From the NCBI RefSeq assembly GCF_020177335.1, contig NZ_JAIVMG010000001.1, positions 682,001-746,000 of the forward strand: a stretch of DNA of 64,000 nt. Direction: 5' to 3'. This DNA comes from Stappia indica. GTDB taxonomy: Bacteria > Pseudomonadota > Alphaproteobacteria > Rhizobiales > Stappiaceae. The notes below the pieces were generated by a model. It was not told where the DNA came from. It made no database searches and saw nothing but the letters and a program-made list of their open reading frames with translations. This document shows, piece by piece, positions 18,539-34,614 of this stretch. Within the stretch, counting starts at the first letter, position 1; each line of letters starts with the position of its first letter. Position numbers and translations under genes: made by a program.

Positions 18539-18659
18539 GGTCCAGAAAGCACTTTCCCTTTGATTTAGAACATGTTCCGGTTCGAATATCACACATATGT
18601 TGGGGCAAGGCACTGAGGCGCCCTCCCCACTGGCGCGGCACGAACCGGAAGGAAAGAAG

Positions 18660-20267
18660 ATGCCCGATCCACGACTGACCTTCCATGGTGCCGCGCGGGC
18701 CGTCACCGGTTCCTGCTTCCGGCTGGAGACCGATCACGGCCAGATCCTCATTGATTGCGGGTTGTTCCAGGGCGCCAAGACCGAAAAGGAACTGAACTAC
18801 CGCCCCTTTCCCTTTGAGCCGGACAAGATTACCGCGGTGATCCTCAGCCACGCGCATATCGACCATTCCGGCCTTTTGCCCAAGCTGGTGCGCCACGGGT
18901 TCAAGGGTCCGATTCACGCCACCCAGGCAACCGCCGATCTGGCCGGGGTGATGCTGCCGGACAGCGCCCATATCCAGGAATATGAGGTCCAGCAGTTCAA
19001 CCGCCGCGCCGCCCGCCGCAATCGCGGTCAGGTCTCGCCGATCTATACCGGCGCCGATGCGGCGGCCTGCCTCATGCAGTTCCGCGCGCATGACTACGAC
19101 ACCTGGTTCGCGGTCCTGCCCGGCGTGCGCGCCCGGTTCTGGAATGCAGGGCATCTGCTCGGCTCGGCCTCGGTCGAAATCGAGGTGGCACAGGAGGGCA
19201 CCCCGGAGCCGATGCGGCTTCTGTTCTCCGCCGATATCGGGCCGGACTACAAGCTGATGCATCCCGATCCGGAAGGCCCGAGCGGGATCGACTATCTGAT
19301 CTGCGAATCCACCTATGGCGACCGCGACCGCATCGACGCCACCGCCGAACGCCGCCGCGAACTCTTGTGCGAGGAAGTGCGCGCGGCAACCAACCCCAAT
19401 GGTGCGCTGCTGATCCCCTCCTTCGCGGTGGAACGCGCACAGGAGTTGATCAGCGACCTCAGCCGCCTGATCGCCGAAAGCAGGTTGCCGCCGATCCCGA
19501 TCTATGTGGACAGTCCGCTCGCCACCCGGGCGACGGAAGTCTTTGCCAAGCACAACAAGGAACTGGAAGAAGGGGCGGTGCTGATGCGCGGCCTCGCGTC
19601 CCGGCACCTGCACTTCACCGAAACCCGGGAACAGAGCATCGCTCTGGACCACGTGCGCGGCTTTCACATCGTCATTGCCGCCTCCGGCATGTGCGATGCG
19701 GGGCGCATCCGTCACCGGCTGAAGAACTGGCTGTGGCGCGATGAAGCGACCGTGCTGTTCACCGGCTTCCAGGCCGAAGGCACGCTGGGGCGCATTCTGC
19801 AGAACGGGGCGCGCTCGGTGCGCATTCAGGGCGAGGAGTTCAAGGTGCGGGCACGGATACGCTCGCTCGACCTTTATTCCGGCCATGCCGATGGCACCGA
19901 ACTGGTCGACTGGATCAAGGCCCGCCTGCCGCTGCGCCACGACCTGTTTCTGGTGCACGGAGAAGAAGCGGCGATTGACGGGCTGGCGGCACGGCTGGCA
20001 GGGATCGTCGATCTCGGCCATGTGCTGCGGCCAGTGCTCGATGAGAGCTTTGTCTTGACGCGAACGGGCGTCGAGCGTCTCTCCGTCCCCACGCCGCCGC
20101 GCCTCGGTCCGGAAAAGATCGCGCGGCTCGACTGGCACAACGACGTGTCGCGGCTCATTCTGGATATCAACGATGCCCTGGCCGGCGCTGCGGACGAGCG
20201 CTCGCGCGATGTCCTGATCCGACGCCTGCAACGCGCACTACAGGACGACGAGGCCGACGAGAACTGA
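18660..20267 (+). CDS. MBL-fold metallo-hydrolase with beta-CASP and RNA-specificity domains
   Basis: The 535-residue protein resembles CPSF73/YSH1-type RNases. The metallo-beta-lactamase core has SHAHIDHSG (H64, H66, D68, H69), GHLLGSASVE and FSADIGPD; the beta-CASP insertion has CESTYGDRDR and SFAVERAQEL; the C-terminal part has ASGMCDAGRIRHRL, GFQAEGTLGR and SGHADGTELVDW. It likely cleaves RNA; bacterial members are poorly characterised. The ATG at 18660 follows AAGGAAAG. It lies 121 bases after phaC and may share its transcript. A strong hairpin follows. Confidence 0.88.
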   Translation: MPDPRLTFHGAARAVTGSCFRLETDHGQILIDCGLFQGAKTEKELNYRPFPFEPDKITAVILSHAHIDHSGLLPKLVRHGFKGPIHATQATADLAGVMLPDSAHIQEYEVQQFNRRAARRNRGQVSPIYTGADAAACLMQFRAHDYDTWFAVLPGVRARFWNAGHLLGSASVEIEVAQEGTPEPMRLLFSADIGPDYKLMHPDPEGPSGIDYLICESTYGDRDRIDATAERRRELLCEEVRAATNPNGALLIPSFAVERAQELISDLSRLIAESRLPPIPIYVDSPLATRATEVFAKHNKELEEGAVLMRGLASRHLHFTETREQSIALDHVRGFHIVIAASGMCDAGRIRHRLKNWLWRDEATVLFTGFQAEGTLGRILQNGARSVRIQGEEFKVRARIRSLDLYSGHADGTELVDWIKARLPLRHDLFLVHGEEAAIDGLAARLAGIVDLGHVLRPVLDESFVLTRTGVERLSVPTPPRLGPEKIARLDWHNDVSRLILDINDALAGAADERSRDVLIRRLQRALQDDEADEN

Positions 20268-20371: not shown

Positions 20372-21343
20372 TCACGCGGCAGCGATCACCGGAGCGTTGC
20401 GCATCATCCGTTTGACATAAGTGCCGACCTGGCATTCTTCGGTCATGCCGATGCCGCCATGAAGCTGGATCGCCTCCTCCCCCACCTTCTGACCTGCGGC
20501 ACGTGCCTTGCTCCACGCGGCGGATGCCAGACGGGCGCTGTCCTCATGGTTCTGGCTGGCGGCCATGGCCGCCGCCATCACCAGAGCGCGGGTTTCCTCC
20601 AGGGCGATCGACATATCCACCAGACGGTGCTGCAGCGCCTGGAAGGCGGACAGCGCCCGGCCGAACTGGTTGCGGGTCTTGGTGTACTCCAGCGTCTGAT
20701 CGAACAACTGTCGCATGGCGCCCAGATGATCGGCGGCGGCCGTCACCTCGGCGGCGACGCGCAGGCGCGCCGCCAGATCCGCGGAGACCGGGACGCCGGC
20801 ATGAGCGGACGGCAGAACGGCGACCTCGGCCATCCGGCGGCCGTCGATCCAGCTTTCCTCCGACACAGGCGCCGGCAGGTCGCCAGCCTCGATCAGCGCA
20901 AGCACCTGCCCCTCGCCCGCCGGCAACAGGGCCAGATAGACATCGGCCTCAAGATCCTGCGGCTTGCGCAGCACGCAAGCGCCCTCCGCCGTGGTCGTGC
21001 CGGTCCCGGCGAGCATGCAGAAGCTGCGCTCGCCGCCAAGAAAGGCATCGAGCGGTGCGCTGTCGCCGGCTTCGGCAAGCGCGCCGAGCGCAATGGCCGG
21101 AAGCACCGCGAAAGACTGCCAGAGGATCGGTGAGAGCGCCGCGCCGAAGCTTTCGGCGATCAGGAACGGCCCATTGAGGCCGAGGCCGAAACCGCCCTGA
21201 TCCTCGGGAACAGAGGCGCAATGCCAACCCATTTCCCGGCTGTGCGCCCATTGCCGGTCCGCGTCCCAGCCGACCGCCTGTTCTTCGAAACGGGCCAGAC
21301 TGTCGGCCAGCATCCGCTCGGTGTCGTTCAGTTCGAAGTCCAT
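20372..21343 (-). CDS. acyl-CoA dehydrogenase family protein (small subunit type)
   Basis: The 323-residue flavoprotein-family member is shorter than a typical acyl-CoA dehydrogenase (about 380). It has an abbreviated N-terminal/middle domain and the C-terminal helical domain with YTKTRNQFGRALSAFQALQHRLVDM and QLHGGIGMTEE. Paired short and full-length ACADs are known from steroid side-chain degradation as alpha2beta2 heterotetramers, and the gene here starts ten bases after a full-length ACAD, with AGGAGG before its ATG. It is the last gene of the long minus-strand unit and probably forms a complex with its neighbour, introducing an alpha-beta double bond into an acyl-CoA. Confidence 0.87.
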   Translation of the reverse strand: MDFELNDTERMLADSLARFEEQAVGWDADRQWAHSREMGWHCASVPEDQGGFGLGLNGPFLIAESFGAALSPILWQSFAVLPAIALGALAEAGDSAPLDAFLGGERSFCMLAGTGTTTAEGACVLRKPQDLEADVYLALLPAGEGQVLALIEAGDLPAPVSEESWIDGRRMAEVAVLPSAHAGVPVSADLAARLRVAAEVTAAADHLGAMRQLFDQTLEYTKTRNQFGRALSAFQALQHRLVDMSIALEETRALVMAAAMAASQNHEDSARLASAAWSKARAAGQKVGEEAIQLHGGIGMTEECQVGTYVKRMMRNAPVIAAA

Positions 21344-21353
21344 CTTCGCCTCC

Positions 21354-22469
21354 TCAGATGCCGAGCACGACCTTGGCCATGACATTGCGCTGGATCTCGT
21401 TCGAGCCGCCCCAGATCGTCAGCTTGCGCAGGTTCAGCCAGGTTTCCTCGGCGTTGTGCAGAATGTCGGGAAGCGGCGCCGCCCAGGCGCGGGCCATATC
21501 GAGCCGCAACAGCGAGATGGCTTGCGCAATCTCGGTTCCCCGGATCTTCAGGGCCGAGGTGCGCGGGCCCGGGTTCTGGCCCGCATTCATGGTGGAGAGC
21601 AGGCGCAGCTCCAGATATTCCAGCGCCAGAAGCTCCACATCGAGTTGCCGGAACCGTTCTGCGAACCGGCCATCGTCGAGCGCCCGCAAGGCATCGAGAT
21701 CGCGGCGCGAGCGGGACGAGCCGGACATGATGAAGCGCTCATGCTCCAAGAGGACCTTCGCATAGGTCCAGCCCTGCCCTTCCGCGCCGATCAGGTTCTC
21801 TGCCGGCACCCGCACATTGTCGAGGAACACCTCGTTGATCTCGGTGTCGCCGTCGATGGTGCGGATCGGGCGAATGGTGATGCCCGGTGTCTTCATGTCG
21901 ATCAGCAGGAAACTGATACCCGCCTGCGGCTTCACCGTCAGGTCGGTCTTGACCAGGCAGAACATCCAATCGGCCCATTGCGCCCAGGTCGTCCAGGTCT
22001 TCTGGCCGTTGACCACATAGGCATCGCCATCGCGCACGGCGGTCGTCCGCAGGCTGGCAAGATCGGATCCGGCACCCGGCTCGGAATAGCCCTGACACCA
22101 CCACGCCTTGTTCTGGCGGATATCGGGCAGAAACCGGTTCTTCTGCGCCGCGTTGCCATAGGTGTAGAGGATCGGTCCGACCATGGTGATGCCGAACTGA
22201 ACCGGCGGCGGCGCATAGGTTGCGCCATAGGCCTGCTCGAACAGATAGCGCTGGGTGGGCGTGAAGCCCGGCCCGCCGAATTCCGCCGGCCAGCCGGCGG
22301 CCAGCCAGTTGTGCCGCGCCAGAACATCCTGCCAGGCGAGATGCTCGGCCCGCTCCAGGATTTCGTTGCGCCGCACCCTGGCGGCGATCGCCGGATCGAG
22401 TTCGGCGGACAAGGTCGCTTTCACGTGGTCGAAAAACGCCCGGTCCTCGGGCGAAAAGGCCAAATCCAT
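21354..22469 (-). CDS. acyl-CoA dehydrogenase
   Basis: The 371-residue protein has the complete ACAD fold: N-terminal helices, the FAD/substrate middle domain (GYSEPGAGSDLASLRTTAVRDGDAYVVNGQKTWTTW, split here by family motifs) and the C-terminal domain ending TIWGGSNEIQRNVMAK. The YEG position that carries the base in medium-chain enzymes is WGG, so the base must come from elsewhere, as in isovaleryl- or FadE-type enzymes; E in LALEYLELRLL is a candidate. Its ATG overlaps the stop of the CoA-transferase gene. With the short ACAD downstream it probably oxidises the acid activated by the CoA-transferase. Confidence 0.9.
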   Translation of the reverse strand: MDLAFSPEDRAFFDHVKATLSAELDPAIAARVRRNEILERAEHLAWQDVLARHNWLAAGWPAEFGGPGFTPTQRYLFEQAYGATYAPPPVQFGITMVGPILYTYGNAAQKNRFLPDIRQNKAWWCQGYSEPGAGSDLASLRTTAVRDGDAYVVNGQKTWTTWAQWADWMFCLVKTDLTVKPQAGISFLLIDMKTPGITIRPIRTIDGDTEINEVFLDNVRVPAENLIGAEGQGWTYAKVLLEHERFIMSGSSRSRRDLDALRALDDGRFAERFRQLDVELLALEYLELRLLSTMNAGQNPGPRTSALKIRGTEIAQAISLLRLDMARAWAAPLPDILHNAEETWLNLRKLTIWGGSNEIQRNVMAKVVLGI

Positions 22470-23641
22470 CAGGTATTCTCCTGTTCGCGGCTCTTGGCGA
22501 GGATCGCATCCACATGCGCACGGTCACCGCCGAGGGCGGGCGCCGACGCCTGCTGCCCACGCGGGGAGCCGGAAAAGACGACGGGTTGTTCGGGCAGGTC
22601 GAGCGGACCGGCGGCGGTCGCGACCTGACGGGTGAGAAGGTTGCGCGCCGCGACCTGCGGGCTCGCCGCCGCTTCCGCGACATCCCAGATCGGCGCGGCG
22701 GGGATGCCGTGCTCTTCCAGCCGGGCAATGACCTCGGCGGCGGAGAAGGCGCCTGCCCATCCTTCGAGGATCTCGCGCAGCGCCGGTTCGTTGGCACGCC
22801 GGTTCTGATCGCTGTCAAAGCGCGGATCGTCGGGCAAGTCCGGGCGGCCGATCAGCTCCGCCAGGCGCTGAAACAGCGGACGGTTGGCCACGGCGAGGAT
22901 GAAATAGCCGTCGCCGGCGCGATAGGCGCCGAACGGCGCGGACAAGGGGTGGATCGCACCGGAGCGTTGCGGCGCCTCCCCCGTCGACTGAAGCTGCGAC
23001 AGCGCGGTGGGCAGGAGCGAGAACAGGCTGTCGAACATCGCGACATCGATGCGCTCGCCCTGCCCTGTCCGCTCACGCTTGAACAGCGCGGCGCAGATCG
23101 CCCAGGCGGCATAGATGCCCGGCACCGTGTCACCGATGGAATCCCCGGCGAAGACGGGCGACCCGTCCGGCTCGCCGGTCACGCTCATGAAGCCGCTCAT
23201 GGCCTGCGCGACAACATCATAGCTTGGCGCCCGCGCCAGCGGCCCGTCCTGACCGAAGCCGGAAATCGAGCAGTAGATCAGATCGGGACGCAGGGCCGAC
23301 AGGGTTTCATGGTCGAGCCCCAGCCGCGCGGCGACGCCGGGGCGGAAGTTCTCCACCACCACATCGCAGGAGGGCAGCAGCCGGCGCACGATCTCCTGAT
23401 CGGCTTCGGACTTGAGGTCGAGGCACAGGCTTTTCTTGTTGCGGTTGATCAGCTCGAAATTGATCGAGTGGCCATTGCGAACGGCACCCATATGCCGCTG
23501 GTCATCACCCGAAGCGCTTTCGATCTTGATGACATCGGCGCCGATATCGGCAAGCAACGCGGTACAGAAGGGGCCGGCCAGAACGCGGGTGAAGTCGAGA
23601 ATCCTCACCCCGTCCAGCGGACGGCCGGAAGCGGTCGACAT
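22469..23641 (-). CDS. CaiB/BaiF type III CoA-transferase
   Basis: The 390-residue protein shows the family III features GVRILDFTRVLAGPFCTALLADIGADVIKIE at the N-terminus and NRNKKSLCLDLKS, followed by VVENFRPGVAARLGLD. The aspartate nucleophile is expected in the SYDVVAQAMSG segment. These enzymes move CoA between carboxylic acids without ATP. It lies ten bases behind dctM of the TRAP importer and overlaps the ACAD gene by one base, so it should activate the imported acid or a breakdown product. The donor could be the product CoA ester, as in carnitine metabolism; this is inference. Confidence 0.9.
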   Translation of the reverse strand: MSTASGRPLDGVRILDFTRVLAGPFCTALLADIGADVIKIESASGDDQRHMGAVRNGHSINFELINRNKKSLCLDLKSEADQEIVRRLLPSCDVVVENFRPGVAARLGLDHETLSALRPDLIYCSISGFGQDGPLARAPSYDVVAQAMSGFMSVTGEPDGSPVFAGDSIGDTVPGIYAAWAICAALFKRERTGQGERIDVAMFDSLFSLLPTALSQLQSTGEAPQRSGAIHPLSAPFGAYRAGDGYFILAVANRPLFQRLAELIGRPDLPDDPRFDSDQNRRANEPALREILEGWAGAFSAAEVIARLEEHGIPAAPIWDVAEAAASPQVAARNLLTRQVATAAGPLDLPEQPVVFSGSPRGQQASAPALGGDRAHVDAILAKSREQENT

Positions 23642-23651
23642 GTCTGTCTCC

Positions 23652-24944
23652 TTAGACGAGGGCCAGCATCAGGCCGGGGAACAGCAGGAAGATCACGATG
23701 CGCAGCACGTCGACGAGCACGAAGGGCGTCAGACCGGCATAGATCTGCCTGAGCTTCAGGTCGGGCCGCATGCCATGCAGCACGAAGATGTTGATGCCCA
23801 CCGGCGGCGTGATCATGCCGATCTCGATGATCATCACATTCATGATGCCCCACCAGACCGGATCGTAGCCGAGCTGGCCGACCACCAGCGGGAAGACGAA
23901 GGGCATGGTCAGGATCATCGCGGCCATGGCGTCGAACAGGCAGCCGAGCAGGATGTAGAGCAGGATCACCACCGAGACGATCAACAGCGGCGGCAGGTCG
24001 AGACCGCCGACCCAATCGACCGTCGCGGCCGGCAGGCCGGAAAGCGTGAGGAAGCTCTTGTAGATCTCCGCCCCGATCAGGATCAGGTAGATCATGCCGA
24101 TGTTGGAGGCCGCGCGGATCAGCGTCTGGATGAAGTTCTCACGGGTCAGCCGGCGGCGAACCAGGCAGGTCACCAGCACCATAAGCACGCCGATGGCCGC
24201 TCCCTCGTTGACGGTGAAAATGCCGGAATAGATGCCGCCGAGCATCACGCCGGCGACCATCAGCGTCAGCCGGGCCTGTCCGGTGGCACGCGCCCGCTCG
24301 CCCCAGGTGGAGCGCGGCAGGGCCTCGCCGTCCTGCGGATTGCGCAAGAGGACCAGACGGATCGCCACGAAGTAGAGAAGCACGGCCACAATCGAGGGAA
24401 CGATCGCCGCCCGGAACAGGTCAAGCACGCTCTGCTGGGTGAGAATGGCGTAGACGACCATGATCACGGAGGGCGGAATGAGCGAGCCGAGCGTGCCGCC
24501 ACCGGCGATGGAGCCGGCAATCAGCGCGTTGGAATAGCCGCGCTTGCGCATTTCCGGCAAGGCAACCTGCACCATCGTTGCCGTGGTGGCGACGGACGAG
24601 CCGCAGATCGCCCCGAAGATCGCGCTGGTACCGACGGTGGTCAGGGCGAGACCGCCACGAAAGTGGCCGATCCAGGCATGAGAGAGGCGGTAGATCTCCT
24701 TCGACAGGCCAGCAATGATCGCGAAACCGCCCATCAGGATGAACAGCGGAATGACGATCAGTTCCTGCGAGGAAAGAGCCTGCACGGTGGCGGTGCCGAA
24801 CAGGGAGAAGACGGAAGCCTGGGCATCGAGGAACAGGGTTCCGAGGACGCCGACCGCAGCCATGGCGGCGGCGATGGGGACATTGAGCAGGATGACCGCA
24901 AGCAGCGCGGCCAAGCCCAGAAGGCCGATCAGGACAGGAGACAT
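23652..24944 (-). CDS. dctM: TRAP transporter large permease, DctM family
   Basis: The 430-residue integral membrane protein has about twelve helices and the DctM signatures GSLIPPSVIMVVYAI and PVGINIFVLHGM. It uses the sodium or proton gradient to import a carboxylate delivered by the binding protein. The three TRAP genes are contiguous in the order P-Q-M, with only three bases between the dctQ stop and this start. It sits in the centre of the hydantoinase/HutU/ACAD unit, so the substrate is probably the compound degraded by that unit. Confidence 0.92.
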   Translation of the reverse strand: MSPVLIGLLGLAALLAVILLNVPIAAAMAAVGVLGTLFLDAQASVFSLFGTATVQALSSQELIVIPLFILMGGFAIIAGLSKEIYRLSHAWIGHFRGGLALTTVGTSAIFGAICGSSVATTATMVQVALPEMRKRGYSNALIAGSIAGGGTLGSLIPPSVIMVVYAILTQQSVLDLFRAAIVPSIVAVLLYFVAIRLVLLRNPQDGEALPRSTWGERARATGQARLTLMVAGVMLGGIYSGIFTVNEGAAIGVLMVLVTCLVRRRLTRENFIQTLIRAASNIGMIYLILIGAEIYKSFLTLSGLPAATVDWVGGLDLPPLLIVSVVILLYILLGCLFDAMAAMILTMPFVFPLVVGQLGYDPVWWGIMNVMIIEIGMITPPVGINIFVLHGMRPDLKLRQIYAGLTPFVLVDVLRIVIFLLFPGLMLALV

Positions 24945-24947
24945 GGG

Positions 24948-25523
24948 CTACTCGATCTCGCTAACGCTGGGCGGAAGGGTGGGCGGTTCGACCTTTGCGA
25001 AGACCACCGCCACCTGCCGGAGGGCCACGACCGTCTGAATGACGACGCCGAGCCAGAGACAGACACAGGTGATGGCGAAGGCCGGCCAGCGGGGGATTTC
25101 CAAGAGCCAGGTCGTTTCGCCCGAGTGCCAGAGGTCGAGCGCGTATTCGCTCGTCCACCAGGCCATCAGGCCAAACATCGCCAGCAGCATGCCGGCCCCG
25201 AACGCCTCGAAGGCTTCCCGGAAGCGCCAGGGAAAGTTTTGGGTGAGGAAGCGCACGGTGATCGCCGAGCGGGTGACCAGCATCGCCGGGAAACAGGCCG
25301 CGACGGCGACGATCCCCAGCGGTGCGTAAAGGTCGGACAGCCCGTCGAACCCATGTTCCAGCAGCCACATGTCCAGATGTGGCCAACTGTCCCGCAGGGC
25401 GAGGACGGCGCTCGAACGCAGCAACACATCGAGCAGAACCAGAGCCGTCACCGCCAGCAAGGCGGTCAGGCCGACCACCGCGATCGCGTTGGCCAGCCTC
25501 ACCAGGAGTGGTTCGCCTCTCAC
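24948..25523 (-). CDS. dctQ: TRAP transporter small permease, DctQ family
   Basis: This protein of about 191 residues has four hydrophobic helices and the usual W-rich loops of DctQ subunits. I place the start at the GTG at 25523, which overlaps the dctP stop as GTGA; an upstream ORF start would overlap dctP by 67 bases, and a GTG at 25502 is also possible. It bridges the binding protein and DctM in the membrane. Confidence 0.85.
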   Translation of the reverse strand: MRGEPLLVRLANAIAVVGLTALLAVTALVLLDVLLRSSAVLALRDSWPHLDMWLLEHGFDGLSDLYAPLGIVAVAACFPAMLVTRSAITVRFLTQNFPWRFREAFEAFGAGMLLAMFGLMAWWTSEYALDLWHSGETTWLLEIPRWPAFAITCVCLWLGVVIQTVVALRQVAVVFAKVEPPTLPPSVSEIE

Positions 25524-26533
25524 TTGCCGAGCGCGGCATGCGCCGCCGCGAGAATGTCGGCATTCTTGTCCGACCGCGCGAGCCACTGCTTCTCGACCTG
25601 CTTCAGCACGGTCTTGGCCTTGGTCAGGTCACTCTCGGACAACTCGATGAAGTGGTGGGCGTCCGAGGCTTCCAGCCGCGCCACGACATCGGCGGTCTGG
25701 CCATCCATGTTCTTGCCGAGTTCCGTCGTGTACCACTCGCCCTTGAGCTGATCGATGGCGGCCTTGGCCTTGGGCGGCAGCGCCTCATAGCTGTCTTCCG
25801 ACAAACCGAACAGCACGGCGAACGCGCCGAGCGGCAGATTGGTGACGTGATAGGTCAGAAGATCGCCGACGCCGAAGTTGTAGAGGTTGCCGGTGTCCAC
25901 CAGCGCGCCGTCGATCAGGCTGCGGCTGACGTTTTCGGCAAGCGCCGTGGCGGGGATGTTGGAGACCGGCACCGCGCCGAGGCGGGCAACGATCTGCGCC
26001 TGCATCTGGCCGGAGATCCGCAGCTTCTTGCCGCGCAGATCGGCCAGGCTCTTGATCGGCTCGGCGAGATGAATGAAGTACGGGCCGGACTGCAACATGC
26101 CGAGCGGGATCAACCCGTCCATCCCGTCGATCAACCCCTGCTCGATCAGGGCGAGGCTGGCGAGGGCGCCGTCGGAATTGCTGGAGGTCAGGCCCGGCAG
26201 TTCGAACACGTCAAGACCGGTAATGCGGCCCGGGGTATAGGGCAGCGGAATCTCGGCGATATCGGCGACACCGTCCTGCACCAGCTTGAGCTGGACCTCG
26301 CCGCCGGAGACAAGCGAACCGCCCGGATAAAGCTCGATTTTCAAGGTGCCGTCGGACAGTTCAGCCGCCTTGTCGATCAACGCCTTGGCCGACAGGGCAT
26401 TGTTGACCGTCGTCGCCGGCAGGAAGGAGGAATATTTCAGCGTCGCCTGCTCCTCGGCAATGGCCGGAGTGGCCAGTGTGAGTGCCGCGGCCGCGATGAG
26501 GCTTCCCAGTTTCAGTTTGCGCAGTGCCAGCAT
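25520..26533 (-). CDS. dctP: TRAP transporter substrate-binding protein, DctP family
   Basis: The 337-residue protein starts with a Sec signal peptide (LGSLIAAAALTLATPAIA, cleavage after residue 26) and then has a DctP fold with LADLRGKKLRISGQMQAQIVARLGAVPV and the downstream helix DGALVDTGNLYNFGV. It binds the TRAP substrate in the periplasm. It differs clearly from the Tat-dependent DctP at the left edge of the window. It lies 69 bases after the HutU-like gene, the largest gap inside the unit, so an internal promoter is possible. Confidence 0.92.
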   Translation of the reverse strand: MLALRKLKLGSLIAAAALTLATPAIAEEQATLKYSSFLPATTVNNALSAKALIDKAAELSDGTLKIELYPGGSLVSGGEVQLKLVQDGVADIAEIPLPYTPGRITGLDVFELPGLTSSNSDGALASLALIEQGLIDGMDGLIPLGMLQSGPYFIHLAEPIKSLADLRGKKLRISGQMQAQIVARLGAVPVSNIPATALAENVSRSLIDGALVDTGNLYNFGVGDLLTYHVTNLPLGAFAVLFGLSEDSYEALPPKAKAAIDQLKGEWYTTELGKNMDGQTADVVARLEASDAHHFIELSESDLTKAKTVLKQVEKQWLARSDKNADILAAAHAALGK

Positions 26534-26602
26534 GGTGTTCCCCTTGTGCTGTTTATTGGTGGAAGGTGCTCCGGCCAGCGTGCCGGCCGGAGCGGGCAGA
26601 AC

Positions 26603-28261
26603 TCAGGTCCTGATGTGTCCGACGCTCTTCTTTTGTGCTTCGTCGAGCGCATCCGCATAGCCTGCATCGGCATAGCGGATGACGCCGAGCGCCGTGTCGT
26701 TGGTCAAAGACAGGTCGATACGGGTATCGGCATCTTCCGTCCCGTCAGCAACCACGGTCACGCCGGCGGAGGTCATGTATCCCGCATATCCACCACCGCC
26801 AGAGTGAATGGCGACCAGATCCGCGCCGGAGGAGCACAGCGCCATGGCATCGAGCAACGGCCAGTCGGCGATGGCGTCCGATCCGTCGCGCATCCCCTCG
26901 GTCATGATGTTGGGATGCGCCATGCCGCCGGCATCGAGATGATCGCGCGAGAAGGCGACCGGCCCGGCCAGTTCACCGGAGGCGACCAGACGGTTGACCG
27001 CCTTGGCAAGCTCCGTGCGTTCGCCGTGACCGAGCCAGGCGATGCGCGCCGGCAACCCCTCGAAGGGAACGTTCTCGCGGGCGAGCCTGATCCAGTTGGT
27101 GACGATCTTGTTGTCCGGGAACATCTCCAGAAGGAGATCGTCGATCCGGGCAATGTCGCTTTCCTCGCCCGACAGCGCCATCCAGCGGAACGGGCCAATG
27201 GCACGGGCGAACAGCGGACGCAGATAGGCTTCGGTAAAGATCGGAATGGAGAAAGCGTTCTCGACCCCGCCCTCCCTGGCCTGGGTGCGGATCAGATTGC
27301 CGTTGTCGAACACCTCCGCTCCACGCTCCTGAAACGTCAGCATGGCACGGACATGATGGGTGATGCTCTCGCGCCCCGCCTCGATCAGCTCTTCCGGATT
27401 TTGCTCGCGCAGACGGCGGACACGATCAAGGTCATAGCCGGCGGGAACATAACCGTAGACCAGGTCATGGGCGCTGGTCTGATCGGTGACGATGTCCGGG
27501 GTGATGCCGCGCGCGGCGATCTCGGGGAAGACCTCGGCGGCGTTGCCAACGAGGCCGACGGAGAGCGCCCGGCCTTCCGCACGAGCCGCCTCGATACGCG
27601 CCAGCGCATCGTCCAGATCCGTGGCAATCTCGTCGAGGAAACCGATTTCGCGGCGCTTTTCGGCCCGCTCCGCATCCACGTCGACGCACAGGATCGCAGC
27701 CCCGGCCATGCGCCCGGCCAGCGGCTGGGCGCCGCCCATGCCACCGAGACCGGCGGTCAGGATGAAGCGGCCCTTCAGCTTGCCCTCGAAGCGGCGCTCG
27801 GCGATCCGCATGAAGATCTCGTAGGTGCCCTGAATGACCCCTTGCGAGCCGATATACTGCCAGGCGCCGGCGGTCAGCCCGCCCCAGCAGATCAGGCCCT
27901 TGCGCTCCAGATCGTAGAAGACATCCGCCTTCGCCCACTGGCCGACCAGGTTGCAGTTGGCCATGATCACCATGGGCGCATCCTTGTGGGTGCGCAGCAG
28001 ACCGACCGGCTTGCCGGACTGGATCACCAGCGTCTGGTCCTCTTCCATCTCAAGCAGCGCCTTGACGATGGCGTCATGGGCCGGCCAGGTCCGCGCGGCG
28101 CGGCCGAGGGCGGCATAGACGATCAGCTTTTCCGGCGCCTCGCCGACGGCCAGGACGTTTTCCATCAGCCGCAGCAGGCCTTCCGCGCGCCAGGTCCGGG
28201 CACGGCGCTCGGGCCCGCCGGGGATCGGGAAGTCGGGATGACGGGGATTGGGTTTAGGCAT
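26603..28261 (-). CDS. hutU: urocanate hydratase family protein (HutU-like, altered active site)
   Basis: The 552-residue protein is a clear urocanase homolog: VIQSGKPVGLLRTHKDAP, YIGSQGVIQGTYE, and the NAD-binding TAGLGGMGGAQPLAGRM near residue 170. Several active-site positions differ from ordinary HutU. The canonical PARICW cysteine is alanine (A408), RDHLDSGSVASPNRETE reads RDHLDAGGMAHPNIMTE, and HHGGGVGMGYSQH reads HSGGGGYAGYMTS. There is no hutH, hutI or hutG nearby. The enzyme may therefore act on a modified urocanate, for example a thio- or S-methylthio-urocanate. The ATG at 28261 overlaps the DUF917 gene by eight bases. Family assignment is certain, substrate is not. Confidence 0.88.
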   Translation of the reverse strand: MPKPNPRHPDFPIPGGPERRARTWRAEGLLRLMENVLAVGEAPEKLIVYAALGRAARTWPAHDAIVKALLEMEEDQTLVIQSGKPVGLLRTHKDAPMVIMANCNLVGQWAKADVFYDLERKGLICWGGLTAGAWQYIGSQGVIQGTYEIFMRIAERRFEGKLKGRFILTAGLGGMGGAQPLAGRMAGAAILCVDVDAERAEKRREIGFLDEIATDLDDALARIEAARAEGRALSVGLVGNAAEVFPEIAARGITPDIVTDQTSAHDLVYGYVPAGYDLDRVRRLREQNPEELIEAGRESITHHVRAMLTFQERGAEVFDNGNLIRTQAREGGVENAFSIPIFTEAYLRPLFARAIGPFRWMALSGEESDIARIDDLLLEMFPDNKIVTNWIRLARENVPFEGLPARIAWLGHGERTELAKAVNRLVASGELAGPVAFSRDHLDAGGMAHPNIMTEGMRDGSDAIADWPLLDAMALCSSGADLVAIHSGGGGYAGYMTSAGVTVVADGTEDADTRIDLSLTNDTALGVIRYADAGYADALDEAQKKSVGHIRT

Positions 28262-29354
28262 TCGACGGCTCCAGCGCGTATTTCGCGAGTTCAATACCCA
28301 TGGCTTTTTCGACCGACGGGTAGACGGCCGGATCGAGAACGCCCGCGCCGAGCGGGATCACCGACTTCGGAACATGCAGGATGTGCACCCGCATGCCTTC
28401 CTCAAGCTGTCCGACGGACAGCGGTTCGGCGTCGGTCGACAAGGTGGTGATGACATCGGGGAAGCTGGCGATGCGATTGCCGCCGGCATCATCGATGGCC
28501 ATGTATTCGTTCATGACATGAAGGGTCAGCGCCTTGTCGCCCGAGCCGACAACCACGGTGCCGACATCAAAGGCTTCGTTCGTGTAGACGACGTTCTTCT
28601 TCGTGACGACGTCCTCGATCAGGATCGCGCCGCGCGTCTGCTCGACGATGGTGTCGATCACCGCCGCCGTGCCCTTCGGCTCGGCCGCCAGGATCGCATG
28701 GCCCAGATCGAGCGCCATGGAGATGCCGCCGAGCGCGGCATTGCGCGCCACATACGACGCGCGCAGCGGATTGCGCGCGCTTGCGATGAAGCCGCCGGAC
28801 ATGTCCGAGGCGGTGCGCAGGATCGGCGAGACCTTGGCGGTGGCGCCGCGCACGGTCAGTTCGATGTAACGGTTCTGCTCGCGATTGCCGCCGACGGCGG
28901 TCTGGATCATCTGTTCCTGCGAGCCGGCCATGCCGATGGAGCCCATGTCGCCGGTCGGGTGGGCGCGGATGTCGCCAACCGCGTCGATCACCTTGCAGCC
29001 AAGGATCGCGGACGGAAGCCAGCCATTCAAGGTGGAGGATTTGCCGTTCTGGCCAACGATCAGACCGGAAACCGGCGTGCCGAGTGCCTCGTTGAGCATC
29101 CGCACGGCCTTCACGTAGTCGACGCCGCGCATTTCCCAGGGGGTGGTGCTGGCCGGCGCGCCGATGGCGGCAGCGGTGGCGACCCAGTCGTCATCGTTCA
29201 ACTCATCGATGGACACCAGTTCCGGCGCTCCGGCGCCAACAGCGGCATAGCCGAGCTTGCGGCCGTGATCCGCCCAGCCGCCGCCGCCGGCAGCATAGAC
29301 CGAGCCGCCGCGTACGGCCGGTTCGACGTCCTTTTCGGTCAAGGTACGACGCAT
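28254..29354 (-). CDS. DUF917 family protein (S-methyl-thiohydantoin desulfurase-like)
   Basis: The 366-residue protein matches the DUF917 family throughout, with EKDVEPAVRGGSVYAAGGGG at the N-terminus and DIRAHPTGDMGSIGMAG in the middle. Members are related to hydantoinase/oxoprolinase proteins, and the family has more recently been linked to removal of sulfur from thiohydantoins. It lies between the carbamoylase and the HutU-like gene with overlapping or 21-base junctions, so its substrate is probably the product of that hydratase, a hydantoin-type propionate. No signal peptide or membrane segment is seen. The reaction is inferred from family and context. Confidence 0.8.
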   Translation of the reverse strand: MRRTLTEKDVEPAVRGGSVYAAGGGGWADHGRKLGYAAVGAGAPELVSIDELNDDDWVATAAAIGAPASTTPWEMRGVDYVKAVRMLNEALGTPVSGLIVGQNGKSSTLNGWLPSAILGCKVIDAVGDIRAHPTGDMGSIGMAGSQEQMIQTAVGGNREQNRYIELTVRGATAKVSPILRTASDMSGGFIASARNPLRASYVARNAALGGISMALDLGHAILAAEPKGTAAVIDTIVEQTRGAILIEDVVTKKNVVYTNEAFDVGTVVVGSGDKALTLHVMNEYMAIDDAGGNRIASFPDVITTLSTDAEPLSVGQLEEGMRVHILHVPKSVIPLGAGVLDPAVYPSVEKAMGIELAKYALEPSNA

Positions 29355-29375
29355 TTCCTCTCCTCTCGTCAGGTC

Positions 29376-30602
29376 TCAGCCCTGGTCCAGGGCGATAACG
29401 GTTTCGGCCAGAACTTCCGCGCCTAGCGCGATGTCGGCGGTTTCGGCCCATTCTTCCGGGCAGTGTGACCGCCCCCCGAGACAGGGGACGAAAACCATGG
29501 CCGCCGGCGCAATCCGCGCCATGAAGGCGGCATCGTGACCGGCGCCGGAGACCATCCGGCGGTGCCGCGCCCCGCAGCGGTCGGCAGCGGCATCCAGCCG
29601 GTCGATCAAAGCGCCATCCATCGGCGTCGGCTGGTTGTCGGACAGGCGCCTCACCTCCACCGCAATGGCTTCGGGCAATGCGGCGCAGCGCGCATCAATC
29701 CAGTCGAGGAAACCGAGCATCTGCGCCCGGTCGGCGGCTCGGGCATCGATCAACATCCGCACCCGGCCTGGCACGACATTGGCGGCATTGGGTTCCATCG
29801 AGAACTCGCCCACGGTGGCGGTGAAATGACTGCCCTGTGCGGCACGGTCACGGGCTTCCGCCTCGATGGCGGAGACCAGCCCGGCGGCGGCGACCAGCGC
29901 GTCGCTGCGCCCGGTCATCGGCGTGGTGCCGGCATGATCCGGGCGGCCCGTCAGCACGATCTCAACGCGGGTGATGCCGGCAATGGCGGTGACAATGCCC
30001 AGATCGCAGCCGCTGTCTTCCAGAACGGGCCCCTGCTCGATGTGCAGTTCCAGGAAGGCGCGGATATCATCACGCGCGGCGATGCCCTCCGGCGCGCCGC
30101 CGACGTCGCGCATCGCCGTTTCCAGCGTCCGTCCCTCGTGGGTAAGTGCCATCCAGTCCGCCGGCAGCACCCCGGCCATGGCGCGCGAGCCGATGCAAGA
30201 AACGCCGAAGACGGAGACCTCCTCCGCCAGGAAGTCGACAATGCCGAGATCGTGACGCAGGACGTGACCGCGTTCCGCCAGGGTCCGCGCCACTTCAAGG
30301 GCGACCACCACACCGGCGATACCGTCGAAGCGCCCGCCATCGGGCACGGTGTCGGAATGGGAGCCGAGCAGGATCGTACCCAGCCCGCCGGCGCTGCCGG
30401 CACGCCGCCCGATCAGATTGCCGCCAGCATCATGCGAGACGGTGAGACCAGCTTCCGCGAAGCGGCGGGCAAGCCACCCCCGCCCCTCATCGAAACGGGG
30501 CGAAAAGGCCCGGCGGGTCCAGGGGCGGCCGGGATCGGTGATCGCGGCAAGCGCCTCAAGATCGGATTGAATGCGGTTGGCGTCGACCCGGAGATTGCGC
30601 AT
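29376..30602 (-). CDS. M20 family Zn-dependent amidase/hydrolase (N-carbamoyl-amino-acid hydrolase type)
   Basis: The 408-residue enzyme has the M20 metal motifs GSHSDTVPDGGRFDG (H82, D84, D93), a LAEEVSVFG glutamate pair, and a dimerisation domain with GRPDHAGTTPM. This subgroup includes L-carbamoylases, allantoate amidohydrolase and beta-ureidopropionase. Its ATG overlaps the stop of the hydantoinase-like gene as TGATG, a classic hydantoinase/carbamoylase pairing. It likely opens an N-carbamoyl amino acid, N-carbamoyl-L-glutamate if the pathway proposal for this unit is right, releasing the amino acid, CO2 and ammonia. Confidence 0.87.
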   Translation of the reverse strand: MRNLRVDANRIQSDLEALAAITDPGRPWTRRAFSPRFDEGRGWLARRFAEAGLTVSHDAGGNLIGRRAGSAGGLGTILLGSHSDTVPDGGRFDGIAGVVVALEVARTLAERGHVLRHDLGIVDFLAEEVSVFGVSCIGSRAMAGVLPADWMALTHEGRTLETAMRDVGGAPEGIAARDDIRAFLELHIEQGPVLEDSGCDLGIVTAIAGITRVEIVLTGRPDHAGTTPMTGRSDALVAAAGLVSAIEAEARDRAAQGSHFTATVGEFSMEPNAANVVPGRVRMLIDARAADRAQMLGFLDWIDARCAALPEAIAVEVRRLSDNQPTPMDGALIDRLDAAADRCGARHRRMVSGAGHDAAFMARIAPAAMVFVPCLGGRSHCPEEWAETADIALGAEVLAETVIALDQG

Positions 30603-31984
30603 CAGTGCACCGCCTTGCGCAGGCCAAGGGGCCGCTCGGGGCGCACGAAGGTGCCCGTGCCCGGCGCCGCACAAACGCTCGTACCGTCGAAGACTTGCTG
30701 GCCGCGCAGCCAGGTCGCGGCGGTGGTCCAGGGCAGTTCGATCCCGTCATAGGGCGACCAGCCGGCGAGCGAATGACGGCTGGCGGCTGCGTCATAGACG
30801 CGGGCGACCGGCTCCAGAACCGTGAGGTCGGCGTCGCGCCCGGCGGCAATGCCGCCCTTGGCATGATCGAGGCGGAAATGGCGGGCAGGATTGTCCGCCA
30901 TCAGCCGGGCCGCCCAGGTCAGCGAGATGCCCCGCTCCAGCGCGCCCTTGACGAAGAGCGGAACCATCACTTCCAGCCCCGGCACGCCGGAGGCGTTCTT
31001 CAGCATCTCCGGATCGGTCTTGCGATCCTCCGACCAGCTCACGTGATCGGTGGAGACCATGGAGATGTTGCCGGCGGCCACATGGCGCCACAGGGTCTCG
31101 ACCTCGGCACGCGGACGGATCGGCGGGTTGATCTTGGCCTTGCCGCCAAGCCGCGCGACGTCGTTTTCCTCATCGAGCGTCAGATAATGGATGCAGCATT
31201 CGGCAGTGGCGTGGTGCCCCTCCGCACGGTAGCGGCTGGCGATCTCATAGCCGCGCCCGAGGGAACAATGCACCACATGCGCCGGACAGCCGGTCGCCGC
31301 TCCGGTCTCATAGATCTGCAACATGGCCAGGATTTCGGTCATCGGCGGCCGGGACAGGCCATGGGCACGCCAGTCGGTGATCCCGGCGGCCTCGACTGCG
31401 GCAACCGCTTCGCGCACGAAGGCATCGTCTTCATTGTGTACGCCGGCGGCCAGGCCGGTCTTGGCGACTTCCGCGAAACAGGCCATCAGAAGGGCCGGCG
31501 GAATGCGGGGGAACCGCGTCGGGTGGGTGCCGAAGGTGGAGAACTTGAAGGCAGCGACGCCGGCCTCGGCCTGCTCGGCAACGCGGACCGGGCCCTCGGT
31601 CGGATCGACCGTGCCATAAAGCGCCACGTCGACGCGGGCTTCGGCCTCCGCCTCAGCGGCCTTGCGCCGCACGGCTTCGGCGGAGCAGACCAGATTGCCC
31701 TCGTCATAGGGCATGTCGACGATGGTGGTGACACCGCCGGCAGCAGCTGCGGCGGTGGAGGCGGCGAAACCTTCCGCACCCTTCTGCGACAGAGAATGAA
31801 CCTGGGCATCGACCGCACCGGGCAGGATCAGCGCCGCGCCGAGGTCATGCCGCTCACGCGCGGCCGGGGCGCTGCCTTCGCCCACCAGGGCGACCTTGCC
31901 GTCGCGTACAGCGACGAAACCACCCTCGACCTCACGGTCCGTCAGAACGACGCGGCCGCGCAGCACCAGATCAAAATCGGACAT
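30602..31984 (-). CDS. dihydroorotase/hydantoinase-like amidohydrolase
   Basis: The 460-residue enzyme belongs to the cyclic-amidase branch (hydantoinase, allantoinase, dihydroorotase). The metal-bridging lysine is K147 (AFKFSTFGTH), other ligands are in HNEDD, HVVHCSLG and STDHVSW. The first metal motif, normally D-x-H-x-H, reads DAQVH (Q61, H63), so the first histidine is glutamine; this looks like a subfamily trait, and zinc binding may be mono- or binuclear with a changed ligand. The ATG at 31984 follows GAGGGGGG by six bases. It should open a hydantoin ring for the overlapping carbamoylase gene. Confidence 0.87.
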   Translation of the reverse strand: MSDFDLVLRGRVVLTDREVEGGFVAVRDGKVALVGEGSAPAARERHDLGAALILPGAVDAQVHSLSQKGAEGFAASTAAAAAGGVTTIVDMPYDEGNLVCSAEAVRRKAAEAEAEARVDVALYGTVDPTEGPVRVAEQAEAGVAAFKFSTFGTHPTRFPRIPPALLMACFAEVAKTGLAAGVHNEDDAFVREAVAAVEAAGITDWRAHGLSRPPMTEILAMLQIYETGAATGCPAHVVHCSLGRGYEIASRYRAEGHHATAECCIHYLTLDEENDVARLGGKAKINPPIRPRAEVETLWRHVAAGNISMVSTDHVSWSEDRKTDPEMLKNASGVPGLEVMVPLFVKGALERGISLTWAARLMADNPARHFRLDHAKGGIAAGRDADLTVLEPVARVYDAAASRHSLAGWSPYDGIELPWTTAATWLRGQQVFDGTSVCAAPGTGTFVRPERPLGLRKAVH

Positions 31985-32104: not shown

Positions 32105-33268
32105 TCAGAAAAGCTCTTGAATTTGCTCAACAAAGCGCTGACTCCGTGCATCATGACGAGAGATCAGGGAGAGCGTCTGAAGGTAGTCGGCCGGTAGCAG
32201 AAGACGCTTGACGCACGCCCCGGCCGGCAGGCGCAGCGAAGCCGGCAGGACCGAGATCGCACCCTGATAGAGCACGGCGTTCAGTGTCACGGGCACCGAA
32301 TCTATCTCCATCAGACGGATCTTCCAGCGCCAGTCGGGGCCGCAGAAGTCATCCAGGAATTGCGTCGTCTTCTGACGCAATCCGCTGCGCAGGCTCTGCA
32401 GGGCAAGAGGCGCACGCGACAGTGCTTCCATCAACTCAGGACCGGCGAGCGTGTCGGGCAAATCCTTGCCATAGAGCGCAAGCCGCCCGGCCAGCATCGG
32501 CACGCAGCGGTAGCGGTCCTCCACCGTTCCGCTGTCCAGAAGAACGGCGTCGTAGCGCCCCTCATCGAGACCGGTCATCAATTCCTCCGCCGTCGCCGAC
32601 GCAATGAACAGTGGCATGGGGAAGCGCTGGAGCCAGCGGACGGAAATGCGGGCCATCACCTCCGCAATTTCGCTCTGGCTGCCGGAAGGGATGACCGATC
32701 CCAGGGAACGACCGCGCACGCCACGTTCGAACCGGTTGTCCGAAGTGCGGCTGAGATGCGACCAGCGGTCCTGCAACTCGTCGATGACCTCGATCAAGGC
32801 CAGACCCTCCGCCGTGGGCGTGACGCCGTGGCTGCCGCGCTCCATCAGCACGCGCCCCAACCGCTGTTCGATCTGGGTGATTGTGCGGGTCAGTTGCGGC
32901 TGACCAAGTTGCATTTCCAATGCCGCCTTGCGGATGCTTCCAGCCCGCAGGACGCCGGCCAGGCGGAACAAAGCCTCCAGGGTGACGGGCGTGGTGAGGA
33001 TCGCGCCGAGCGAATCGTCAGGTGACAACCGGTAAACCCGGCGGCATAGAGTGCTGAGGCGTTCCAGGCTGTTGCGCAGCTGTTCGCCCTGGACCGAGAG
33101 CGCCAGATCACCGCCGCCGCGACGCACCAGTTGCAAGGAAAGCTCCGCCTCCAGTCGCGTCAGCGCGGACGCAACGGTCGACACCGGCGCCCCGCTGATC
33201 CGCGCCGCAGCCCGAACACCATTTTCGCGAAGCACAAGATCGCCCAGAATGATTGTCAGGAGACGCAT
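32105..33268 (-). CDS. LysR-type regulator with two tandem N-terminal HTH domains
   Basis: The 387-residue protein is about 80-90 residues longer than a normal LysR protein because it has two winged helix-turn-helix segments. The first spans about 3-70 (RENGVRAAARISGAPVSTVASAL, TRLEAELSLQLVRR); the second about 93-160 (RAGSIRKAALEMQLGQPQL, TRTITQIEQRLGRVLMERG, VTPTAEGLALIE). A periplasmic-binding-like effector domain follows (about 190-387). It precedes, in the same orientation and by 120 bases, the hydantoinase-like gene and is the likely regulator of that unit. LysR regulators are normally divergent from their targets, so the arrangement is also less usual. Confidence 0.88.
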   Translation of the reverse strand: MRLLTIILGDLVLRENGVRAAARISGAPVSTVASALTRLEAELSLQLVRRGGGDLALSVQGEQLRNSLERLSTLCRRVYRLSPDDSLGAILTTPVTLEALFRLAGVLRAGSIRKAALEMQLGQPQLTRTITQIEQRLGRVLMERGSHGVTPTAEGLALIEVIDELQDRWSHLSRTSDNRFERGVRGRSLGSVIPSGSQSEIAEVMARISVRWLQRFPMPLFIASATAEELMTGLDEGRYDAVLLDSGTVEDRYRCVPMLAGRLALYGKDLPDTLAGPELMEALSRAPLALQSLRSGLRQKTTQFLDDFCGPDWRWKIRLMEIDSVPVTLNAVLYQGAISVLPASLRLPAGACVKRLLLPADYLQTLSLISRHDARSQRFVEQIQELF

Positions 33269-33834: not shown

Positions 33835-34614
33835 ATGGATCTTGCAAGACGGATGTTCATGGGACAGCTCGCGCGGTTTGCCGCCGGCGCGAGCCTTGTG
33901 CCGCTGGCCACCGTTGCGGAGGCCGCCATCAACGAACAGCCGCCGCGGCGCGGCGGCGATCCCGCCAAACGCTACGCCATGCTGATCGACCTGCGCCGCT
34001 GCATCGGCTGCCAGGCCTGCACGGTGTCGTGCCATCTGGAAAACGACGCGCCACTCGGCAAGTTCCGCACCATCGTCTCTCAATACGAGGTCGACGATCC
34101 GGAAACCGGCGACATGTCGACCTTCTTCCTGCCGCGTCTGTGCAACCATTGCGACAACCCGCCTTGCGTGCCGGTCTGTCCGGTGCAGGCCACCTACCAG
34201 CAGGAAGACGGCATCGTCGTCGTCGATGCCGAGCGCTGTGTCGGCTGCGCCTATTGCGTTCAGGCCTGCCCCTATGACGCGCGCTTCATCAACGACAAGA
34301 CCCAGACGGCGGACAAGTGCACCTTCTGCACCCACCGGCTGGAGGCAGGGCTTTTGCCCGCCTGCGTGGAAAGCTGCGTCGGCGGCGCCCGCATCATCGG
34401 CGACCTCAACGATCCGGAGAGCACGATTTCGAAGATGGTCGCCGAGCATCACGGCGAGCTGAAAGTGCTGCAACCGGAAAAGGGCACCAGCCCGCACGTC
34501 TTCTATCTGGGGATGGACGAACGGTTCATCGACCGGCCCGAGGCTTTCGCCTCGATCTGGGACATTCACGGCAAGGACAACAAGGAGCTGCACTATGAAT
34601 TCAGCGGTCATTGA
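33835..34614 (+). CDS. ttrB: tetrathionate reductase-type iron-sulfur subunit (TtrB-like)
   Basis: The 259-residue protein binds four 4Fe-4S clusters through CIGCQACTVSC, CNHCDNPPCVPVC, CVGCAYCVQAC and CTFCTHRLEAG...CVESC. The N-terminus has a Tat-like segment (ARRMFMGQLARFAAGASLVPLATVAEA), so it acts in the periplasm with the catalytic subunit, as known for TtrB. It passes electrons between the quinol-oxidising membrane subunit and the molybdenum subunit. It is the first gene of the operon and overlaps the next by 20 bases. Closely related PhsB/PsrB proteins for thiosulfate or polysulfide are the main alternative. Confidence 0.85.
   Translation: MDLARRMFMGQLARFAAGASLVPLATVAEAAINEQPPRRGGDPAKRYAMLIDLRRCIGCQACTVSCHLENDAPLGKFRTIVSQYEVDDPETGDMSTFFLPRLCNHCDNPPCVPVCPVQATYQQEDGIVVVDAERCVGCAYCVQACPYDARFINDKTQTADKCTFCTHRLEAGLLPACVESCVGGARIIGDLNDPESTISKMVAEHHGELKVLQPEKGTSPHVFYLGMDERFIDRPEAFASIWDIHGKDNKELHYEFSGH

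Follow-up and report, generated by a model that had tools for sequence, protein, structure and literature searches.

A run of ten genes in a 64,000-nucleotide stretch of DNA from the marine bacterium Stappia indica (hereafter the window) contains a four-enzyme core that, judged by family models and gene order, very probably converts thiourocanate to L-glutamate by way of thiohydantoin propionate, hydantoin-5-propionate and N-carbamyl-L-glutamate. Thiourocanate is a breakdown product of ergothioneine, a dietary antioxidant. An entry enzyme specific for ergothioneine is absent from the operon, and the unusual part is therefore the remainder: a tripartite ATP-independent periplasmic (TRAP) importer, a type III coenzyme A (CoA)-transferase and two acyl-CoA dehydrogenases (ACADs). 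We consider it fairly likely that the CoA-transferase and the ACADs form an entry module acting on thio-imidazole propionate, the substrate, the direction of the reaction and the recycling of CoA all being suggested by genome context. Slightly more tentatively, we propose that two parallel CoA-transferase/ACAD modules, one attached to the thiourocanate core and the other found in hut operons, reclaim thio-imidazole propionate and imidazole propionate by re-oxidation to thiourocanate and urocanate respectively, and that thiourocanate is a hub with interchangeable entries (a cytosolic or apparently exported ergothionase, a CoA-transferase/ACAD module, perhaps a UbiD-family enzyme or a luciferase-type monooxygenase). 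The four-step core is already known; what is new is the entry module, together with its parallel in hut operons.

The initial annotation had offered the core as a new candidate pathway, and this does not stand, since NCBIfam already holds equivalog models for every one of the four steps (NF058530, NF058529, NF058538 and NF058540); a wholly new pathway is ruled out. All four steps are present in the one operon, each above its cut-off, and these scores support the earlier suggestion that a hydratase, a desulfurase, a hydantoinase and a carbamoylase act in series to L-glutamate. That series is the part of the earlier interpretation that survives; besides the claim of novelty, its shortcoming was that the TRAP importer, the CoA-transferase and the two ACADs were given no role. 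Among the four core enzymes the substrate of ErtE is the least certain, because a general model for Zn-dependent hydrolases (NF009531, cut-off 486) gives it a higher score, 616.2 bits, than does the ErtE model. The enzymology of ergothioneine utilization has reportedly been studied in Burkholderia sp. HME13 and by the Seebeck group. According to excerpts of two papers, the products of ergothionase are trimethylamine and thiourocanic acid, of which the second can proceed to glutamate (PMC13405746, PMC7653990); an alternative fate, described in part of the first of these, is the thiourocanate desulfhydrase reaction of anaerobic gut bacteria (PMC13405746). The window operon differs from the ert pathway in carrying the CoA-transferase, the ACAD pair and the TRAP importer, and three lyase queries found no ergothionase-like match anywhere in the window.

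Two neighbouring assignments of the core can be set aside. The hydratase and desulfurase are homologous to those of the S-methyl thiourocanate branch (NF058531, NF058532), but the HutU-like protein scores 733.6 bits against a cut-off of 880 for S-methyl thiourocanate hydratase and the former DUF917 protein 293.9 against 450 for the S-methyl desulfurase, which rules that branch out. The HutU-like protein does exceed the loose cut-off of the hutU model (695.6 bits against 375). In a tree confined to sampled loci, with characterised enzymes outside it, it nevertheless groups with 16 other thiourocanate-type hydratases, and these 17 are split at 100/100 from five hut-operon urocanases, among them the HutU of the same genome (L087); the clustering with histidine-pathway urocanases against which the initial annotation had warned is thus not found. 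Its remark that hutH, hutI and hutG are missing nearby holds for the entire window (tblastn, E≤1e-8), a hutC/F/I/H/G/U set being located elsewhere in the genome, on contig C8. Together the NCBIfam scores, the tree and the missing hut genes rule out plain use of histidine by the operon. The hut pathway shares its logic, a hydratase acting on an imidazole acrylate, and some hut operons also carry a CoA-transferase/ACAD pair, but the window hydratase lies outside hutU.

All ten genes are on the minus strand, are free of internal stops and together fill positions 20372-31984 exactly, in the order ErtD, ErtE, desulfurase, HutU-like hydratase, DctP, DctQ, DctM, CoA-transferase, large ACAD subunit and small ACAD subunit. 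Gaps between them run from -8 to +69 bp, with overlaps of 1 bp at ErtD/ErtE and at CoA-transferase/large ACAD subunit and of 8 bp at desulfurase/hydratase, so that the coordinates confirm the earlier description of ten co-directional genes with overlaps or short gaps; the family content then assigned to them is likewise borne out by Pfam and NCBIfam. Some starts lie downstream of those of the longest open reading frames, including ErtE (30602), the HutU-like gene (28261) and the small ACAD subunit (21343), and the DctQ start, a GTG at 25502, is our own choice. The stretch holds 12 minus-strand open reading frames of at least 185 amino acids; 100 mononucleotide shuffles gave 2.03 on average and never more than 6. 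The hydratase shares 99 % identity with its counterpart in Stappia taiwanensis (L006), and a further Stappia genome (G086, 99 % complete) carries the operon at 97-100 % identity (L100).

Asp171 of the CoA-transferase aligns with an Asp of YfdE, at a position that we take to be that of the CoA carrier residue in type III CoA-transferases, and the protein forms one clade (100/98) with three other thiourocanate-linked CoA-transferases. The best solved relatives of the large ACAD subunit are 4x28_A (167 bits) and then 6wy8_B, while that of the small subunit is 6wy8_A (58 bits), the partner chain of 6wy8_B. Glu244 of the large subunit, conserved in all four module-bearing lineages described below, aligns with position 247 of 4x28_A, presumably the catalytic base. 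A single-chain structure prediction of the small subunit, of low confidence (mean predicted local distance difference test score 60.6), places strands between residues 108 and 186, which would fit a middle domain that has diverged but is not missing. As in the heteromeric enzymes 4x28 and 6wy8 (Tcur3481-Tcur3483), the large and small genes are adjacent and each matches the corresponding chain, and the two subunits probably make up one heteromeric enzyme; the similarity is distant, however, and the partners of the window genes are thiourocanate genes. The solved relatives presumably go under the names ChsE4-ChsE5, assemble as alpha2beta2 and serve in steroid side-chain breakdown.

In the scheme that we favour, the TRAP system would import a thio-imidazole monocarboxylate (thio-imidazole propionate), the type III CoA-transferase would convert this acid to the CoA ester, and the two ACAD subunits would oxidise 3-(2-thioxo-imidazol-4-yl)propionyl-CoA to thiourocanoyl-CoA. 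The CoA-transferase would then pass CoA on to the next substrate molecule, freeing thiourocanate, from which thiourocanate hydratase, thiohydantoin desulfurase, ErtD and ErtE would yield L-glutamate. Thio-imidazole propionate is a natural product of the reduction of thiourocanate in the gut. A precedent is reported for Pseudomonas testosteroni, which according to Coote and Hassall (1973) degrades imidazolylpropionate aerobically by way of urocanate; in that route a saturated propionate side chain is likewise oxidised to the acrylate before the urocanate pathway takes over, although the substrate, unlike the one proposed here, contains no sulfur. To our knowledge the genes were not identified in that work. 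We recognised no description of the CoA-dependent step or its genes in the literature searched, which consisted mostly of reviews and metabolomics and had most subscription journals outside its coverage, and the portions of PMC13320830 and PMC11872695 that were seen make no mention of such a step for imidazole propionate.

The distribution of entry enzymes was surveyed at 96 loci with a thiourocanate hydratase (95 fetched loci and the window; L-numbers mark fetched loci here and elsewhere), scored for the three lyase queries, the CoA-transferase and both ACADs over some 9-14 kb of flanking sequence; some loci are cut short by the end of a contig, and many come from related rhizobia. A lyase without the module is present at 80 loci, the CoA-transferase with both ACADs and no lyase at seven, neither at nine, and both at none. 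The seven module-bearing loci represent four lineages: Stappia (the window together with L006 and L100, which do not differ from each other in hydratase DNA), Celeribacter persicus (L009), a Rhodobacteraceae metagenome-assembled genome counted twice (L014 and L104, again with no difference in hydratase DNA) and plasmid pAMI4 of Paracoccus aminophilus (L088). Rhizobium johnstonii illustrates the lyase-bearing arrangement, with a PF00221-type lyase gene immediately upstream of ertD (L026:4305-5891) whose product has as its best PDB match the ergothionase of Treponema denticola, 6s7j; at the aligned place neither protein (GSIGCADIGLM and SSIGEGDITTL respectively) has the Ala-Ser-Gly that we take to be the 4-methylideneimidazole-5-one (MIO) triad of MIO lyases. 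The hydratase itself is infrequent, scoring above cut-off in 2 of 87 genomes of the family and 5 of 385 of the class, and in one further family it was found at E≤1e-250 in 1 of 394 genomes, at a locus already in the sample.

A 98/99 clade of seven hydratases mixes module-bearing loci (the window, L009 and L014) with lyase-bearing ones (L010, L015, L085 and L093), and the P. aminophilus hydratase falls outside it, while the CoA-transferase of P. aminophilus belongs with the other three (100/98). The pAMI4 module is oriented divergently to the core instead of following it at the tail. Since the hydratase and CoA-transferase groupings differ and the pAMI4 arrangement is distinct, the module has either joined the core more than once or been kept or lost independently of it. 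Among 72,556 plasmid records, 1,226 have a match to the CoA-transferase and only in one of these, pAMI4, does the match reach 60 % identity. The matching gene is separated by about 5 kb from a thiourocanate hydratase gene, and plasmid hydratases at that level of identity number only nine in all.

Other genes adjoin the core at some loci. On a Thalassospira marina plasmid a UbiD-family decarboxylase gene, possibly another entry route, lies between the thiourocanate hydratase and TRAP genes (L091:13677-15095), and neither a lyase nor a CoA-transferase/ACAD pair occurs in the stretch fetched. Plasmid-borne cores of Rhizobium (L095:2473-6703) and Neorhizobium (L103:1630-6782) are accompanied by a luciferase-type monooxygenase (assigned by Pfam in the former and by annotation in the latter), a HutC-like regulator and an amino-acid ABC transporter. 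In Paracoccus aurantiacus a gene for a molybdopterin-binding protein is convergent with the core and is followed, as far as can be judged by eye, by more genes of this type (L008:11688-13928). Ergothionase-like matches are absent from the stretches fetched for L095, L103 and L008.

A module of the same logic is found among histidine utilization genes. On a plasmid of Paracoccus alcaliphilus a CoA-transferase gene and a single ACAD gene lie between hutG and hutU, and this order (hutI-H-G-CoA-transferase-ACAD-U) recurs on P. aminophilus pAMI6 and on a Thioclava plasmid, where hutG and a partial hutU were identified by tblastn; a Pseudorhodobacter plasmid has hutI-H-CoA-transferase-ACAD-U, and genome G128 a looser fifth hut cluster. 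The pair directly precedes hutU in four of these five clusters. P. aminophilus therefore holds both versions, the thio module on pAMI4 and the hut module on pAMI6. We collected 16 hut-type pairs, consisting of 11 plasmid loci (all seven with an ACAD that matches the P. alcaliphilus one at 60 % identity or more, and four from the CoA-transferase search) and all five places at E≤1e-90 in the 385 genomes of the class. Besides the five in hut clusters, three adjoin a hutC-like regulator and an amino-acid ABC transporter (L121, L129 and L130), one a Rieske oxygenase/aminotransferase set (L134), and the others stand alone; the seven plasmid records with an ACAD of at least 60 % identity comprise four hut operons, two with the hutC-like regulator and ABC importer, and the one with the Rieske oxygenase set. 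On gene order, the simplest reading of the hut-embedded pairs is that they convert imidazole propionate to urocanate, and they are candidate genes for the degradation of imidazole propionate.

The presence of the module at loci that lack the lyase would also be accounted for if it acted on ergothioneine itself, CoA activation being followed by elimination of trimethylamine to give the same product as ergothionase. Type III CoA-transferases and ACADs take part in the metabolism of carnitine-type betaines, and CaiB is a distant homologue of the CoA-transferase. We nonetheless regard this as improbable: with the trimethylammonium group on the alpha carbon the elimination needs deprotonation at the beta position, which on chemical grounds a CoA thioester should disfavour, the same enzyme types adjoin hutH in hut operons, and the substrate of hutH is no betaine. 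The usual preference of TRAP importers, considered next, also tells against it.

TRAP importers mostly carry carboxylates. Relatives of the window DctP at 67-75 % identity lie beside the thiourocanate hydratase in L009, L014 and Martelella (L015); the best plasmid match (44 %) is that of Thalassospira, inside the thiourocanate operon with the UbiD-family gene, and the second best (43 %), in Paracoccus saliphilus, is next to hutC, with hutI about 8 kb away. These neighbourhoods fit a subfamily of TRAP importers that takes up (thio)imidazole acids and not ergothioneine. In Martelella the gene for an ergothionase-like lyase whose N-terminus looks by eye like a signal peptide (L015:7900-9576) adjoins that for the DctP of 67 % identity, an arrangement that suggests periplasmic cleavage of ergothioneine. 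Import of thiourocanate formed in the periplasm would suit this locus, which has a related importer and no CoA-transferase/ACAD, and one could suppose that the TRAP system imports thiourocanate directly and that the module deals with some other side substrate, for instance an acid with a longer side chain; the Thalassospira importer, with its UbiD-family gene, is in keeping with that. We think this very improbable: its account of the importer resembles ours, but it leaves the module without a substrate linked to the core, and the modules in hut operons point to the propionate analogue.

A LysR-type gene lies 120 bp upstream of ErtD on the same strand, outside the limits drawn by the initial annotation, and it belongs with the cluster, probably as its regulator. 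Related regulators stand beside the core on P. aminophilus pAMI4 (36 % identity, L088) and in an uncultured Rhodobacteraceae bacterium (62 %, L014). Tandem helix-turn-helix stretches are seen both in the window protein and in that of pAMI4 (L088:8897-10102), and regulators of this kind adjoin the core in several lineages.

Several observations weigh against import and re-oxidation of thio-imidazole propionate as the role of these genes. The mutual exclusion of module and ergothionase rests on four module-bearing lineages, and the 80 lyase loci are not 80 independent events, since most come from related rhizobia; it is conceivable that a distant hutH would score above the threshold set for the lyase, and the lyase call at L099 is doubtful. 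Ergothioneine could moreover still feed the pathway in this genome (G000), because an ergothionase-like lyase is encoded on another contig: the PF00221 protein at G000:C6:235597-237174 (L086:9598-11178) has 6s7j as its best PDB match and, with GSMGESDMSPI where 6s7j has SSIGEGDITTL, no Ala-Ser-Gly at the MIO position. In that case the operon would serve ordinary ergothioneine use, thiourocanate being made by this remote ergothionase, and the CoA-transferase and ACADs would serve another carbon source and merely be co-transcribed. We consider this unlikely. The C6 protein has nothing above 34 % identity in 13 other genomes of the genus, including the operon-bearing G086, whose only matches to the ergothionase-like query are two pieces (29-34 %) adjoining its hutU; it is some 20 residues shorter than 6s7j in mid-protein; its gene is downstream of one that looks by eye like an IclR-type regulator gene, and the 8-9 kb fetched on each side hold no ert gene; and the recurrence of the CoA-transferase and ACADs with the core in four lineages that have no neighbouring lyase would be left unexplained. 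The case for it as the missing ergothionase of the operon is weak.

The module's own relatives also count against re-oxidation of the propionate. Those of the large ACAD subunit at 48-52 % identity accompany ordinary beta-oxidation genes, as in Bradyrhizobium (L089) and Paracoccus yeei (L090), where they lie beside thiolases and enoyl-CoA hydratase or related genes; this subfamily alone is therefore no predictor of substrate. Seven of the 16 hut-type pairs, one of them in the genome of the window itself (L124, G000:C3), have no hut gene in the stretch fetched, so that other acids are probably substrates of this pairing as well. In the hut modules the ACAD is a single protein of another subfamily, with 26 % identity to the large subunit over 245 residues and with acryloyl-CoA reductase as its best NCBIfam match, below cut-off, and four of the five hut CoA-transferases form a clade apart from the thio-linked ones, so the parallel between the thio and hut modules is one of logic, not orthology.

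Table 1. Genes of the window operon with the adjoining LysR-type gene, and loci of the hut-embedded pairs (window positions unless a locus is named)
Feature	Position	Strand	Family evidence
LysR-type regulator	32105..33268	-	Pfam HTH_1, two N-terminal stretches, and LysR_substrate
ErtD, hydantoin-5-propionate amidohydrolase	30602..31984	-	NF058538, 768.3 bits (cut-off 600)
ErtE, N-carbamyl-L-glutamate amidohydrolase (M20)	29376..30602	-	NF058540, 588.6 bits (cut-off 520)
Thiohydantoin desulfurase (former DUF917)	28254..29354	-	NF058529, 585.2 bits (cut-off 440)
Thiourocanate hydratase (HutU-like)	26603..28261	-	NF058530, 1029.6 bits (cut-off 930); tree 100/100
TRAP solute-binding protein DctP	25520..26533	-	PF03480
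TRAP small permease DctQ (start uncertain)	24948..25502	-	PF04290, 34 bits (cut-off 28.3)
TRAP large permease DctM	23652..24944	-	PF06808; TIGR00786, 277.2 bits (cut-off 268.45)
Type III CoA-transferase (proposed to form the CoA ester of thio-imidazole propionate)	22469..23641	-	PF02515, 421.6 bits, residues 9-373
Acyl-CoA dehydrogenase, large subunit	21354..22469	-	Three Pfam ACAD domains
Acyl-CoA dehydrogenase, small subunit	20372..21343	-	PF00441, PF02771; middle domain unrecognised by Pfam
Hut-embedded CoA-transferase/ACAD pairs	L119:11998-14285, L131:7853-10164, L132:7797-10128, L133:7811-10134, L126:7653-10009		

Genes resembling those for TtrB, TtrC and TtrA lie next to the operon (33835-38834); all are under the tetrathionate reductase cut-offs, the first is above that of DsrO (239.5 bits against 200), and they are a sulfur-related neighbour, perhaps by chance. 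On the other side, a metallo-beta-lactamase/beta-CASP protein (18597-20267) scores below the cut-offs for type VII Cas14 (338.8 against 800) and aCPSF1 (241.6 against 580.2), and its gene adjoins one resembling a polyhydroxyalkanoate synthase (16700-18538; 507.4 against 622.65).

Gut reduction of thiourocanic acid yields the propionate, and if our proposal is right, aerobic bacteria would return this reduced acid to glutamate, closing a loop of carbon, nitrogen and sulfur. Imidazole propionate is a gut metabolite linked to diabetes, and the hut-embedded pairs would provide candidate genes for its breakdown by bacteria. That thiourocanic acid supports the growth of anaerobic gut bacteria is reported in part of PMC13405746. 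For annotation, a rule would follow, namely that a CoA-transferase/ACAD module beside a urocanate or thiourocanate hydratase suggests growth on the corresponding propionate.

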